NCBI GenBank assembly: GCA_004321915.1
Contig: SCQE01000071.1
Location: 1-64,000, forward strand
DNA: 64,000 nucleotides
Reading direction: 5' to 3'
Source of the DNA: Nitrospirota bacterium
GTDB lineage: Bacteria; Nitrospirota; Thermodesulfovibrionia; Thermodesulfovibrionales; Dissulfurispiraceae
The notes beneath the pieces are model-generated. The model did no database searches, had not been told where the DNA came from, and was given only the letters and a program-made list of their open reading frames with translations. Every line of letters starts with the position of its first letter. Within the stretch, counting starts at the first letter, position 1. Shown here piece after piece: positions 1 to 3,644 of this stretch. The position numbers and the translations under genes are program-made.

Positions 1-1
1 A

Positions 2-415
2 GGGGGAACGAGGGGGTTGTACAGGCTGCCGACAGAGGCAGAATGGGAATATGCTGCAAGAAGCGGGGGAAAGCGCGAGAAATATGCGGGTGGTGATGAT
101 GTTGACAGTGTTGCTTGGTACACATCAAATTCAGGCAGCAAAACACATCAAGTCGGAACGAAAGCGCCTAATGGACTTGGTATATACGATATGAGCGGCA
201 ACGTGTGGGAGTGGGTGCAGGATATATATAGCAATAAAGCTTATAGTTCTCATAGTAGAAATAACCCTATATATACGGAGAGCGGCTCCATCCGGGTGCT
301 TCGTGGCGGCAGCTGGAGCAACATCGCGGAGAATGTTCGCGCAGCCAATCGCTTCGACAACAATCCGGACCTCAGGAACCTCTACTTGGGCTTCCGCCTT
401 GCCAGGACTCCTTAA
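2..415 (+). CDS. FGE-sulfatase/SUMF1-like protein with variable C-terminus, partial at left edge
   Basis: The reading frame is open from the window edge, so the N-terminus is missing. Recognisable formylglycine-generating-enzyme (C-type lectin fold) motifs are YRLPTEAEWEYAAR near the edge, MSGNVWEWVQD, VLRGGSW and the terminal LGFRLA. True FGEs carry an active-site Cys pair just after the RGGS motif. Here that stretch has no Cys and is rich in Ser, Asn, Phe and Asp, so catalysis is unlikely. This lectin-fold type is a common diversified target of diversity-generating retroelements, and its last 118 bases align without gaps to a template-like sequence at 1034-1151. I infer a binding or display protein. 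The TTG at 17 is an internal codon, not a start. The family call is firm; the function is inference. Confidence 0.85.
   Translation, partial: GGTRGLYRLPTEAEWEYAARSGGKREKYAGGDDVDSVAWYTSNSGSKTHQVGTKAPNGLGIYDMSGNVWEWVQDIYSNKAYSSHSRNNPIYTESGSIRVLRGGSWSNIAENVRAANRFDNNPDLRNLYLGFRLARTP
292..409 (+). other. Candidate DGR variable region (VR) at 3' end of FGE-like gene
   Basis: This segment aligns gap-free with 1034-1151. In the core 311-390 I count 16 differences, of which 11 fall on adenines of the putative template (11 of 30 A positions against 5 of 50 other positions). AAC codons of the template become AGC, ATC, TTC, GAC and CTC here. Adenine-biased substitution at the end of a lectin-fold gene is the hallmark of DGR mutagenic homing. 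The five non-A differences, plus several in the flanks, mean that 1034-1151 is either a diverged template or not the direct donor. Confidence 0.6.
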
Positions 416-469
416 CTTTTGGTTTTTTAACTTTTTACCTTTTGGAGTTGTTTTGTCTTTGTTTTTTTT

Positions 470-538
470 GTCATACCCGCGGATGCGGGTATCCAGAGAA
501 AATACATGGATGCCCGACAAAGGCATTCGGGCATGACA
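470..538. repeat. Bipartite palindromic interspersed repeat, copy 1
   Basis: Two hairpins stand back to back. The left one opens GTCATACCCGC and closes GCGGGTATCCAG. After a spacer of about 10 bases the right one opens TGGATGCCCGA and closes TCGGGCATGAC. The outer ends GTCAT and ATGAC are inverted copies of each other. Lies in the non-coding stretch between the FGE-like gene and the GIY-YIG gene. Confidence 0.85.
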
Positions 539-549
539 GAAAAAGGGTT

Positions 550-620
550 GTCATACCCGCGAAGGCGGGTATCCAGTTTTTTGGTTTCTGGATGCCCGAT
601 AAAAGATTTCGGGCATGACA
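550..620. repeat. Bipartite palindromic interspersed repeat, copy 2
   Basis: Same build as the copy 12 bases upstream: GTCATACCCGCG with GCGGGTATCCAG, a T-rich spacer, then CTGGATGCCCGA with TCGGGCATGAC. Adjacent copies suggest local duplication or repeated insertion into the same site. Confidence 0.85.
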
Positions 621-634
621 GAAAAAAGAGGGCT

Positions 635-668
635 GTCATTCCCGCAGTCTGTTGAGCGGGAATCTAGA
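635..668. repeat. Left palindromic repeat flanking the GIY-YIG gene
   Basis: GTCATTCCCGC and GCGGGAATCTAG form a hairpin ending 10 bases before the nuclease start codon. It matches the left half of the bipartite repeats at 470, 550 and 63320. The matching right half occurs only after the nuclease gene, at 972-1004. Confidence 0.8.
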
Positions 669-677
669 AAGAAAAAA

Positions 678-1010
678 ATGAAAAACTTTTATGTTTACAT
701 CCTTGCAAGCAAAAGAAACGGAACTCTTTACACAGGTGTAACATCAGACCTTATCAAGCGTATTTACGAACACAAGAACAACCTTGTTGACGGTTTTACA
801 AAAGAGTATCATATCCATTCTCTCGCATGGTATGAGATTCATGATACGGCAGAGGCTGCTATAGCAAGAGAAAAACAGATTAAGAAATGGAACAGGACGT
901 GGAAGTTAAAACTGATTGAGAAAGATAATCCGGATTGGCGTGATTTATATGATGACATTTGTGGGAAACCGCTGGATTCCCGATTAAGGACTTCGGGAAT
1001 GACAGAATAA
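678..1010 (+). CDS. GIY-YIG nuclease family protein
   Basis: A protein of 110 residues with an N-terminal GIY-YIG fold: FYVYILASKRNG and LYTGVTSDL carry the two conserved triads, followed by the Arg/Glu-rich helix RIYEHK and the later EKQIKKWNR element. This matches the small stand-alone (UPF0213/YhbQ-like) nucleases. I chose ATG 678; a longer upstream frame would translate the flanking repeat and is not credible. The last 14 residues (from KPLDSRLRTS) are encoded by the right-hand palindromic repeat, which also brings the gene close to its stop. The gene sits in the spacer position of the bipartite repeat found nearby without a gene. Substrate and role of such small nucleases are largely unknown; a part in moving the repeat is my inference. 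Confidence 0.85.
   Translation: MKNFYVYILASKRNGTLYTGVTSDLIKRIYEHKNNLVDGFTKEYHIHSLAWYEIHDTAEAAIAREKQIKKWNRTWKLKLIEKDNPDWRDLYDDICGKPLDSRLRTSGMTE
972..1004. repeat. Right palindromic repeat flanking the GIY-YIG gene
   Basis: CTGGATTCCCG and CGGGAATGAC form a hairpin. It is the inverted partner of the repeat at 635-668 and overlaps the 3' end of the nuclease coding sequence. Confidence 0.8.
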
Positions 1011-1033
1011 AAAGGGGGACAGGTTAAAACGAA

Positions 1034-1151
1034 CCGCGTGCTTCGCGGCGGCAGCTGGAACAACAACGCGAGGAATGTTCGCGCAGTCAATCGCAACAAC
1101 AACACCCCGGACAACAGGAACAACAATTTGGGTTTCCGCCTCGCCAGCACA
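1034..1151 (+). other. Candidate DGR template repeat TR1
   Basis: Read in the frame of the FGE-like gene, this stretch gives [20 protein letters not shown] followed by [14 protein letters not shown]. Asn positions are AAC codons (one is AAT), the codon that yields most diversity when adenines are mutated. There is no FGE domain upstream and no credible start, so it is not the end of a gene. It is followed by a conserved block (1178-1238) that recurs after the second template-like sequence but not after the variable region. The 416-base gap between the GIY-YIG gene and the BrnT-like gene holds this, the block and nothing else I can assign. Confidence 0.6.
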
Positions 1152-1177
1152 CATCATCACAGCAAGCGCGAACCGCT

Positions 1178-1238
1178 GCGTTTACGGATGCACGGTCAGT
1201 GCGCGATGTGTCCAGACCGCTGTCCTGCACGGCGGGGA
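1178..1238 (+). other. Conserved block downstream of TR1
   Basis: It begins GCGTTTACGGATGCA and ends GCACGGCGGGGA. The same two words begin and end the block at 2070-2131, 50 rather than 49 bases apart, at nearly the same distance from the template-like core. It may be a structural part of a template RNA or the remnant of a coding region (both copies translate to RLRM..Q...CPD.C). Confidence 0.5.
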
Positions 1239-1446
1239 CAACCCCCTATCCCCTTTGTTAAGAGGGAATGCCGTCAAAAAACACAAAGGCGGGCGGGGCT
1301 GGTAGGCTTAAAGCCGAAGGCCCTGTGATGCCTGAATGGGTTGGTTATGGCAACAGGGCGGATTTTTCTTTATTATGTCCTGTATTAGCCGGCTTTTTTT
1401 TAGCTTCTTTTGACGCTTCACTTATTACTATGCCAATATATAACAA

Positions 1447-1698
1447 ATGGTTGATTGGAATAGATTCATACCAACTGATTTTGAGTATGACTTTAATCGG
1501 GACAAACTTGCTGTTCATCGAATAAGTTTTGAAGAAGCGGTCGAATGTTTTTTTTCGGACTTTGAACTTAGGCGCAACAAAACATACAAAGACCGTTATC
1601 AAATTATCGGCAAAACAATTGGCGGGAGAAATCTCAAGATAATTTTTCAACTCAAACAGGGCAATATAGTCCGGATTATTACGGGGTGGGAAATATGA
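1447..1698 (+). CDS. BrnT-like (DUF497) toxin
   Basis: An 83-residue protein. FEYDFNRDK, ISFEEAVECF, YQIIGKTIGGR and VRIITGWEI follow the BrnT pattern of a compact RNase fold encoded upstream of its antitoxin. The N-terminus has about ten extra residues, and the usual N..KHG stretch is replaced by LAVHRIS, so activity is uncertain. An in-frame stop lies directly upstream of ATG 1447, and no Shine-Dalgarno is visible. Its stop overlaps the next start as ATGA, the coupling expected of a toxin-antitoxin pair. Being between two template-like repeats, it may be a passenger or stabiliser of the accessory segment. Confidence 0.6.
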   Translation: MVDWNRFIPTDFEYDFNRDKLAVHRISFEEAVECFFSDFELRRNKTYKDRYQIIGKTIGGRNLKIIFQLKQGNIVRIITGWEI

Positions 1699-1982
1699 AA
1701 ACAAAACAGAAGGTATTGGAAGAAAGCAAGATTGATGATGAAGTTATTGCGCAATCTGAGCGCGATGCATGTTGGGAAAAACCGGTAAAAGTGCGGCGGT
1801 CAAAAACAATTGCCATGGCCTTGCCTGCCGCTCTTGCCGCAAGAGCCTCATTCTTCGCCCGCTTACATCGGGAGAATAATACGGAAGCATGGATAAAGCG
1901 TATTATTCAGGAGAGGATCGATATCGAAGAGGCCGCATTCGCAGTCTCCAAGAAGGAACTTGTAGCACGGCACGCACGGTAG
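1695..1982 (+). CDS. BrnA/CopG-like antitoxin candidate
   Basis: A 95-residue product starting at ATG 1695, whose last two bases belong to the toxin stop (TGA 1696-1698). The GTG at 1686 is an alternative start, but it lies inside the GGGGTGGG stretch that can act as ribosome binding site for 1695. The middle (VRRSKTIAMALPAALAARA and following) and the C-terminal helix TEAWIKRIIQERIDIEE resemble ribbon-helix-helix or CopG-like antitoxins that follow BrnT. No strong motif match is seen, so context carries the call. The gene ends immediately before the second template-like sequence; its stop TAG is 3 bases upstream of it. Confidence 0.5.
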   Translation: MKTKQKVLEESKIDDEVIAQSERDACWEKPVKVRRSKTIAMALPAALAARASFFARLHRENNTEAWIKRIIQERIDIEEAAFAVSKKELVARHAR

Positions 1983-1984
1983 TA

Positions 1985-2131
1985 TCGCCCCAAACAACAA
2001 CCCTGACAACCGTAACAACAACATCGGCTTTCGTCTTCTGGGCACAGGGAGGATTCGGCGGAACATCCGGCGTTTACGGATGCAGGAGCAGTCTGTTTCC
2101 TGTCCGGATGCCTGTTCGCGCACGGCGGGGA
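1985..2131 (+). other. Second, 5'-truncated template-like repeat (TR2) with conserved block
   Basis: In frame it reads PNNNPDNRNNNIGFRLL, with all Asn codons AAC, matching TR1 from its NRNNN part onward. The RGGSW part is absent: the antitoxin gene occupies that place. At 2070-2131 it carries the same terminal words as the block after TR1. The remaining non-coding sequence to 2297 shows nothing I can assign. Confidence 0.5.
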
Positions 2132-2297
2132 AATATTTTTAAGATAAGGAATTTGTCCCTATCGCCATACCAGTCAACAGACTAATCACGAATGATAAAA
2201 AGCGGTTGGGTCGAGCCTTATTCCTGCAGTTTTCTTCCGTTTGAACTTTAACCACCAAAGATGATAGTCTAACGGGTTTTTAGCGGAGGATATCTGT

Positions 2298-2885
2298 ATG
2301 GATATAGTGCTTGCCACCCGGAACAAGAAAAAAGCGGAAGAGCTTCAGAGGATTTTATCTGGCGCAGGGGTTACGGTGCTTACGCTCAACGACTTTCCTG
2401 ATTGCCCTGAAGTGGTGGAAGACAAAGACACCTTTGAAGGCAATGCGATCAAAAAAGCATCGGAGGTTGCCCTATACACAGGCAGGGCAGCGGTTGCGGA
2501 CGATTCAGGCCTTGAGGTTTACGCCCTCGGCAATGCTCCGGGCGTCATGTCAGCGCGTTATGCAGGGGAGGACGCGGATGACGACAAAAATATAGAAAAA
2601 CTTCTTTCCAAGATGAAGGGCCTCGAGCAAGCTGAAAGAGGCGCCCGTTTTGTATGCTGCATAGCCTTTGCACGGCCGGACCATGAAATTAAGACCTTTT
2701 TCGGTTTTGTGGAGGGGGGTATCGGGACTGAGCGGAGGGGGACAGGCGGTTTCGGGTACGATCCGGTATTTTTCAGCAGCGGTTCGGGCCTGAGTTTTGC
2801 CGAAATATCTTCTGCTGAGAAGGATGCAGTCAGCCACAGGAAAAAGGCGCTTGAGTTATTTGCCGATTATCTTAAAAAACTATAA
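2298..2885 (+). CDS. rdgB: XTP/dITP diphosphatase (HAM1/RdgB)
   Basis: Hydrolyses non-canonical purine triphosphates (ITP, dITP, XTP) to monophosphates and pyrophosphate, keeping them out of nucleic acids. The 195-residue length is normal. Family motifs are visible in order: LATRNKKKAEEL at the N-terminus (substrate loop), DTFEGNAIKKA, VADDSGLEV with catalytic Asp, PGVMSARYAG, GTGGFGYDPVF, and the C-terminal SHRKKAL. A GGAGG lies 8 bases before ATG 2298. It is the first gene after the accessory region, and a 111-base AT-rich gap separates it from adk. Confidence 0.95.
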   Translation: MDIVLATRNKKKAEELQRILSGAGVTVLTLNDFPDCPEVVEDKDTFEGNAIKKASEVALYTGRAAVADDSGLEVYALGNAPGVMSARYAGEDADDDKNIEKLLSKMKGLEQAERGARFVCCIAFARPDHEIKTFFGFVEGGIGTERRGTGGFGYDPVFFSSGSGLSFAEISSAEKDAVSHRKKALELFADYLKKL

Positions 2886-2932
2886 TTTTCAAAAACATAA
2901 GTAAAATTAATGTGATAATTACAATTTTAAAT

Positions 2933-2959
2933 TTGCATAAAATTACCAGTTCATATAAT
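2933..2959 (+). promoter_or_regulatory. Possible sigma-70 type promoter upstream of adk
   Basis: TTGCAT (2933-2938) and a perfect TATAAT (2954-2959) stand 15 bases apart in the AT-rich gap before adk. The spacer is short, so this is tentative. Confidence 0.35.
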
Positions 2960-2996
2960 TTATAGCGTTTCCTCAAAAATCCATAGGGGGTCTTCC

Positions 2997-3644
2997 ATGA
3001 GAATAGTTCTTCTTGGCGCACCGGGTGCAGGCAAAGGCACACAGGCAAAAATAATCGTAGAGAAATACGGAATTCCGCAGATATCCACAGGCGATCTTTT
3101 AAGGGCGGCGGTTGCTGCCGGAACAGCGCTTGGCAAAGAAGCAAAGGCCGTGATGGATAGAGGCGAACTCGTTCCTGACAGCGTTGTGCTGGGCATGGTC
3201 GAGGAGAGGCTTAAGCAGGATGATTGCAAGAAAGGCTACATACTCGACGGTTTCCCGAGAAACACGAAGCAGGCGGAGGCGCTTGACGTTATGCTTTCGA
3301 ACCTCAATATGTCATTGACGGCAGCGTTGAGCGTGGATGTGCCGCTTGAAGACCTCATGAAGAGGCTGACCGGCAGGAGGACCTGCAAGTCCTGCGGCCA
3401 GATGTACAATGTTTATTACGGGCCGTCGAAGAAAGAGGGCGCCTGCGACAAATGCAGCGGAGAGCTCTTCCAGAGGGACGACGACAAGGAAGAGACGATC
3501 AAAAAGAGGCTCGAAGTTTATACGGCGCAGACCGCTCCTTTGATCGAGTACTATTCGAAGAAGGGGATTCTCAAGTCCGTAAGCGGGACCGGCAGCATCG
3601 ACGATATTTTTAAAAAGGTCTCCGAGCTGCTCGGTCTTAAATAG
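2997..3644 (+). CDS. adk: Adenylate kinase, zinc-type LID
   Basis: Catalyses AMP + ATP to 2 ADP in the cytoplasm. The 215 residues begin MRIVLLGAPGAGKGTQA with the P-loop GAPGAGKGT. The AMP-binding GDLLRAAV and DGFPRNTKQAEAL follow. The long LID holds two Cys pairs (CKSCGQMYN and CDKCSGEL), the structural zinc site common outside enteric bacteria. An AGGGGG ribosome site precedes the ATG. It stands 46 bases upstream of sat. AMP is a product of APS reduction, so adk placement here suits recycling of AMP made by AprBA. That functional link is inference; the enzyme call is firm. Confidence 0.96.
   Translation: MRIVLLGAPGAGKGTQAKIIVEKYGIPQISTGDLLRAAVAAGTALGKEAKAVMDRGELVPDSVVLGMVEERLKQDDCKKGYILDGFPRNTKQAEALDVMLSNLNMSLTAALSVDVPLEDLMKRLTGRRTCKSCGQMYNVYYGPSKKEGACDKCSGELFQRDDDKEETIKKRLEVYTAQTAPLIEYYSKKGILKSVSGTGSIDDIFKKVSELLGLK

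Follow-up and report, generated by a model that had tools for sequence, protein, structure and literature searches.

What is the block of sequence that lies directly behind two template repeats, TR1 and TR2, and is missing behind the variable repeat (VR) of the neighbouring target gene? The window analysed is a stretch of 64,000 nucleotides at the start of contig C128, in an assembly of 3.6 Mb and 145 contigs. Window base 1 is the first base of the contig, and the target gene of the FGE-sulfatase family is cut off by the contig start. The results below make it very probable that the block common to both repeats is the spacer (Sp) in the template RNA of a diversity-generating retroelement (DGR), and that the window holds the relics of at least two former DGRs. 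One is a TR1-Sp like that of a DGR from the same genus (G230), and the other is a TR2-Sp like that of a DGR from another family of the same order (G237).

The preliminary description of this DNA held that the ends of the block recur after both repeats at nearly equal spacing. The distance from GCGTTTACGGATGCA to GCACGGCGGGGA is indeed 49 nt behind TR1 and 50 nt behind TR2, with GCACGGCGGGGA at 1227 and 2120. The window contains just two copies of GCGTTTACGGATGCA (1178 and 2070), where a count of 0.15 is expected at up to 2 mismatches. The 14-mer GCGTTTACGGATGC is found free of mismatches only behind TR1 and TR2 in the whole 3.6 Mb genome. Alignment of the two spacer blocks gives a score of 53, compared to 18.5 ± 2.9 for dinucleotide shuffles, and 0 of 1000 shuffles reach it. 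Nothing similar follows the VR (292-408), in agreement with the description, and the Asn codons of TR2 are all AAC, 7 of 7 (window 1990-2040, translation PNNNPDNRNNNIGFRLL). Two of its points can be extended. TR2 is truncated at its 5′ end as described, but the cassette is truncated at the 3′ side too; the TR has lost its 5′ half, and nothing is left past the 5′ arm of a small hairpin. The homology is longer than the block that was listed, about 1149-1333 behind TR1 and about 2042-2133 behind TR2, and for TR1 it takes in a 3′ hairpin (1287-1333) absent from that listing. The Sp starts directly 3′ of the template repeat in both cassettes: TR1 ends near 1150 and its Sp begins at 1149, and TR2 ends near 2041 and its Sp begins at 2042. 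The genome contains two complete DGRs outside the window, on contigs C98 and C13, and a decayed one on C74. The features of the window and of the loci compared with it are collected in Table 1.

Table 1. Features of the window and of the compared loci. Positions without a locus name are window positions.
Feature	Position	Strand	Content or basis
FGE-sulfatase-family DGR target gene, 3′ part	2..415	+	Pfam FGE-sulfatase 2e-34
VR	292-408		within target gene 2..415; 82% identity, VR vs TR1
GIY-YIG nuclease-like gene	678..1010	+	Pfam GIY-YIG 5e-16
TR1, template repeat	1034..1150	+	sequence matches to VR, C74, G230
Complete Sp RNA of TR1	1149..1333	+	R1 match, MFE fold, covariation
TR1 Sp, outer stem	1149-1155/1205-1211		
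TR1 Sp, UACG-loop hairpin	1173-1195		
TR1 Sp, linker	up to 1228		
TR1 Sp, hairpin 2 (small hairpin)	1229-1233/1270-1274		repeat in loop
Short repeat ACAACCCCCTATCCCCTTTGTTAAGAGGGAAT	1238..1269	+	in loop of TR1 Sp hairpin 2
TR1 Sp, 3′ hairpin	1287-1333		internal GGUAG 1301-1305 / CGAA 1315-1318
BrnT toxin gene	1447..1698	+	Pfam BrnT_toxin 1.4e-8
Probable BrnA antitoxin gene	1686-1982		after BrnT gene; position only, without Pfam match
TR2, 3′ half of template repeat	1986..2041	+	Asn codons all AAC
Partial Sp RNA of TR2	2042..2133	+	alignment to G237 Sp; R2 match
TR2 Sp, outer stem	2044-2050/2097-2103		
TR2 Sp, UACG-loop hairpin	2067-2086		
TR2 Sp, hairpin 2, 5′ arm alone	within 2120-2131		after linker
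C98 DGR, complete			FGE target with VR, DUF559 gene, Avd, TR, spacer, RT
C13 DGR, complete			target, Avd, TR, spacer, RT
C74 DGR, decayed	G000 L029:109-1350		Avd C-terminus, RT without N-terminal part, TR, Sp
G230 DGR (same genus), complete			FGE target, HRDC, GIY-YIG, Avd, RT, TR, Sp
G062 remnant, contig C35	L105:2716-3495	-	Sp 35.8 bits; no RT match nearby
G154 remnant, contig C58	L107:4330-4760		HRDC-type accessory gene into Sp 3′ half, 41.9 bits

The first parts of the Sp, read from its 5′ end, are an outer stem and a UACG hairpin. A conserved linker, whose last bases are UCCUG, leads to a small hairpin; after an A-rich stretch comes a long 3′ hairpin that has GGUAG…CGAA as its internal loop. 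GCGTTTACGGATGC forms the stem and loop of the UACG hairpin, and GCACGGC is the 5′ arm of the small hairpin. The arms of the outer stem are ACACATC/GATGTGT in TR1, ACAGGGA/TTCCTGT in TR2, AGACTGTTAT/ATGATAGTCT in C98 and ACAGATT/TATCTGT in G237; the four-base loop is UACG in TR1, TR2, C13 and others. The 3′ GGUAG/GAA hairpin is present in the TR1 Sp and absent from TR2, in the sequence after 2133. Three of these parts, the outer stem and the UACG and 3′ hairpins, appear in the MFE fold of the TR1 Sp. The z-scores of single-sequence folding are unremarkable (TR1 -1.7, TR2 -0.4) and therefore carry no weight. The short genomic repeat in the loop of the TR1 small hairpin appears as an insertion against the covariance model, and the hairpin can still close despite it. 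Sequences like ACAACCCCCTATCCCCTTTGTTAAGAGGGAAT are also found within the C74 Sp, and one that runs the opposite way follows the C98 Sp. The C74 Sp carries a short genomic repeat in its 3′ hairpin.

Four TR-to-RT spacers, those of C98 and C13 and of two DGRs on contigs of other organisms, served to build a covariance model, R1; two of the four come from this genome and none from the window. R1 finds the TR1 block end to end at 1149-1332 as one structure of 157 positions (38.2 bits, E 1.5e-8 for 158 kb searched). It also matches the spacer of the same-genus DGR G230 (32.9 bits) and that of a Bacteroidota DGR (36.1 bits), and a scan of 395 genomes with it found a TR-Sp behind the C-terminus of an RT in another family. 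Intact DGR templates with the block next to them are found in this genome, in the same genus and in other phyla. The preliminary description proposed that the cassettes be aligned with related DGR loci and examined for covariation. In an alignment of nine spacers, TR2 not among them, 27 of 43 base pairs are changed on both sides and standard pairs fill 94% of the pair cells, values reached by 0 of 500 shuffles; this alignment was fitted to the model, and the pair counts therefore lean towards the modelled structure. When the partners are slid by 1-3 columns the pairing falls to 32-40%, and the size of this drop is hard to explain without a real structure. A further permutation test used stem arms picked by hand; this selection biases it, and it does not serve as proof. 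The covariation and the position beside intact DGR templates bear out the suggestion that the template RNA includes the block as one of its conserved parts.

The covariance signal of TR2 is weaker. The model R2, which includes the TR1 spacer and excludes TR2, gives TR2 17.1 bits, the second rank in 20 kb, with the next match at 10.0. R1 gives it 11.0 bits, which is under a chance match of 13.6, and the assignment of TR2 therefore relies mainly on alignment and position. Aligned with the Sp of G237, a complete DGR and the closest match to TR2-Sp, the TR2 Sp scores 54 (shuffles 15.7 ± 2.4), and with the TR included 104 of 138 bases match. Thus its putative identity as an Sp, weak by covariance model, draws on its resemblance to the spacers of TR1 and G237 and on the TR that precedes it.

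The same description offered another reading, in which the block goes back to an old coding region. This region would be the 3′ end of a former target gene that moved together with the repeat. An ORF (1038-1328) does span TR1 through the block, but in relatives the frame is closed or shifted right after the TR: G230 has TAA directly after its TR and a 2-nt indel that shifts the frame, and C98 has TGA. This stop codon or frameshift in G230 and C98 contradicts the coding trace, and the conservation tracks RNA pairs, with compensatory changes. This reading was rejected and is very improbable. Even less credit is due to the idea that the shared ends belong to a dispersed, MITE-like genomic repeat which landed by chance behind both TRs. 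It was rejected because the core 14-mer is mismatch-free only at the two sites behind the TRs, however common short intergenic repeats are in this genome, one of them inside the TR1 Sp; in addition, G230 has an orthologous block at the corresponding place, and the block stands at TR ends in other phyla. The idea is also contradicted by the search of the whole genome with R2, which matched only C13, C98 and C128.

The reading of the block as a DGR spacer agrees with the gene order around TR1. TR1-Sp and the TR-Sp of G230 match at 268 of 307 aligned bases, and TR1 with its Sp is orthologous to the TR and Sp of that complete DGR. The FGE target of the window has 73% identity with the G230 target. 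In G230 a GIY-YIG-type gene sits between target and Avd, and the window gene has 43% identity with this counterpart (tblastn). The window retains the G230 order for the FGE target, the GIY-YIG gene and TR1-Sp; HRDC, Avd and RT are missing, and a search around window 1-3000 gave no match to any of the three near either cassette. Short inverted and direct repeats (CCCGCGGATGCGGG type, GGATTCCCGATTAAGG type) flank the GIY-YIG gene at 468-632 and 972-1016, at the place where DGR genes are missing. The body of TR1 matches G230, and an exact match to the C74 TR covers the first ~18 nt of TR1 and its 5′ flank; TR1 therefore looks like a chimera. The BrnT toxin gene and the probable antitoxin gene (1447-1982) separate the two relic cassettes, and TR2 starts within a few bases of the stop codon of the latter.

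Two other genomes carry similar remains. In G062 a frame-broken FGE gene has a VR region that passes into the 3′ half of a TR, followed by the Sp, as would result from recombination between VR and TR with loss of the intervening genes. In G154 no Avd or RT match was found in 8 kb around the remnant of HRDC and Sp. From these two RT-less spacer remains, loss of the RT with the template end retained seems to recur in this order.

The window does not hold a complete active DGR: an RT and an accessory gene in cis are absent, and the differences between TR and VR are not confined to adenines. TR1 and the VR differ at 11 adenines and at 9 non-adenine sites, compared to 18 adenines and 2 other sites in G230, and 18 and 1 in C13. 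At 6 of the 9 non-adenine sites the window VR agrees with both the TR and the VR of G230, that is, the change is derived in TR1. TR1 therefore changed after the last retrohoming, and on this pattern it is probably not rewriting the window VR. TR2 has no matching VR among the FGE genes of the assembly, and the C74 TR has no VR partner among the FGE genes of the genome.

The TR-Sp cassettes, TR1-Sp above all, might be non-autonomous, with the RT and Avd of C98 or C13 acting in trans to diversify remote targets. This is unlikely. Two complete DGRs are at hand in the genome, the helices of the TR1 Sp are kept, and a report on Thiohalocapsa PB-PSB1 describes trans activity at loci that have no RT (PMC10907252). 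However, the mismatches just described, 9 at non-adenine sites with 6 of them changes in TR1, speak against trans use of TR1 for the window VR; besides this VR no FGE target found in the genome comes near TR1, the C74 TR or TR2 at non-adenine sites, and the Sp subtype of C98 and C13 diverges from the TR1 Sp. There is likewise only a small chance that the TR-Sp units of this lineage in general are non-autonomous cassettes, in which a template without its own RT would use the RT-Avd of another DGR in the genome by means of a structured spacer RNA. If so, one genome may keep several templates supplying different targets.

The reading as relics of former DGRs thus remains the preferred one. The block is homologous to RT-adjacent spacers, its pairs covary, it accompanies TRs, and RT and Avd are absent in cis; the biochemical role of the Sp and the history of the cassettes are what we infer. 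In a working DGR a single transcript would carry the TR first and then the Sp. The Sp would fold into the outer stem with the UACG-capped hairpin, the UCCUG linker, the small hairpin and the long 3′ hairpin with the GGUAG/GAA loop, and by analogy with phage BPP-1 this RNA would recruit RT-Avd and prime cDNA at the 3′ end of the TR. TR1-Sp would be the leftover of a G230-like DGR after loss of the HRDC, Avd and RT genes, and TR2-Sp would be what remains, in shorter form and with both sides truncated, of a DGR like G237. The best reading of the TR1 Sp is that it can still fold. TR2 is probably dead and most likely without function.

The assignment ties uncharacterised Rfam "RT-N" RNAs to the DGR template spacer. 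The outer stem, the UACG hairpin and the GGUAG hairpin together provide a structural handle for finding DGR templates, RT-less remains included; the template-spacer in another family was found by the covariance search without any protein. The relics also indicate that template and spacer can outlast the RT, which is relevant to the interpretation of orphan templates.

One of the closest known counterparts is the spacer of Bordetella phage BPP-1, which is reported to fold, to recruit bRT-Avd and to prime cDNA (PMC12875486). This spacer is the Phage_DGR RNA (RF03022) and, like the window Sp, lies directly 3′ of the TR. In both, UACG forms the loop of the 5′ hairpin, the linker ends in UCCUG (U.UCCUG in BPP-1), and a small hairpin and an A-rich stretch follow; the 3′ hairpin of BPP-1, with a GUA...GAAA internal loop, holds the same place in the order of parts as that of the window. 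The outer stem of the window Sp is outside RF03022. RF03022 gave no match to the window up to E 5, with BPP-1 itself matching at 104.7 bits as a control. R2 does not match the BPP-1 Sp, and the functional analogy is therefore based on the shared layout and not on score. Unlike BPP-1, the window lacks an RT in cis, and its target is a bacterial one of the FGE type.

Among the RT-N families, RT-14 (RF02921) matches the C13 spacer with 51.9 bits (threshold 48.1) and the C98 spacer with 46.2 bits. The RT-14 RNA is the TR-to-RT spacer in the complete DGRs of this genome, the same position as that of the BPP-1 spacer. The window Sp reaches no Rfam gathering threshold, with 21.7 bits against 48.1 for RT-14. 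The RT-3, RT-14, RT-17 and RT-19 models all match weakly, under their gathering scores, at one GGUAG...CGAA hairpin around 1290-1330; several RT-N families may therefore be DGR spacers with a common 3′ element. The window Sp together with those of G230, G237 and G062 looks like a subtype separate from RT-14 and its relatives.

The FGE-type DGRs with HRDC and Avd, G230 and G237, have the target family, the TR and the Sp in common with the window, and G230 also the GIY-YIG neighbour. Unlike these DGRs the window is without HRDC, Avd and RT, and, unlike in G230, homogenisation of its TR and VR at non-adenine sites has ceased. DGR loci that are remnants or have no RT were described in Treponema denticola and as DGR 4/5 of Thiohalocapsa PB-PSB1 (PMC4891356, PMC10907252). 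They lost core parts as the window did, and there MITE-like repeats replace the RT (PMC4891356, PMC10907252). Those remnants are target genes with VRs, some of them diversified in trans, whereas the remnants in the window are template and spacer RNA. The kind of system is already known; what is added here is the identity of the block, its link to the RT-N RNAs and the relic state.
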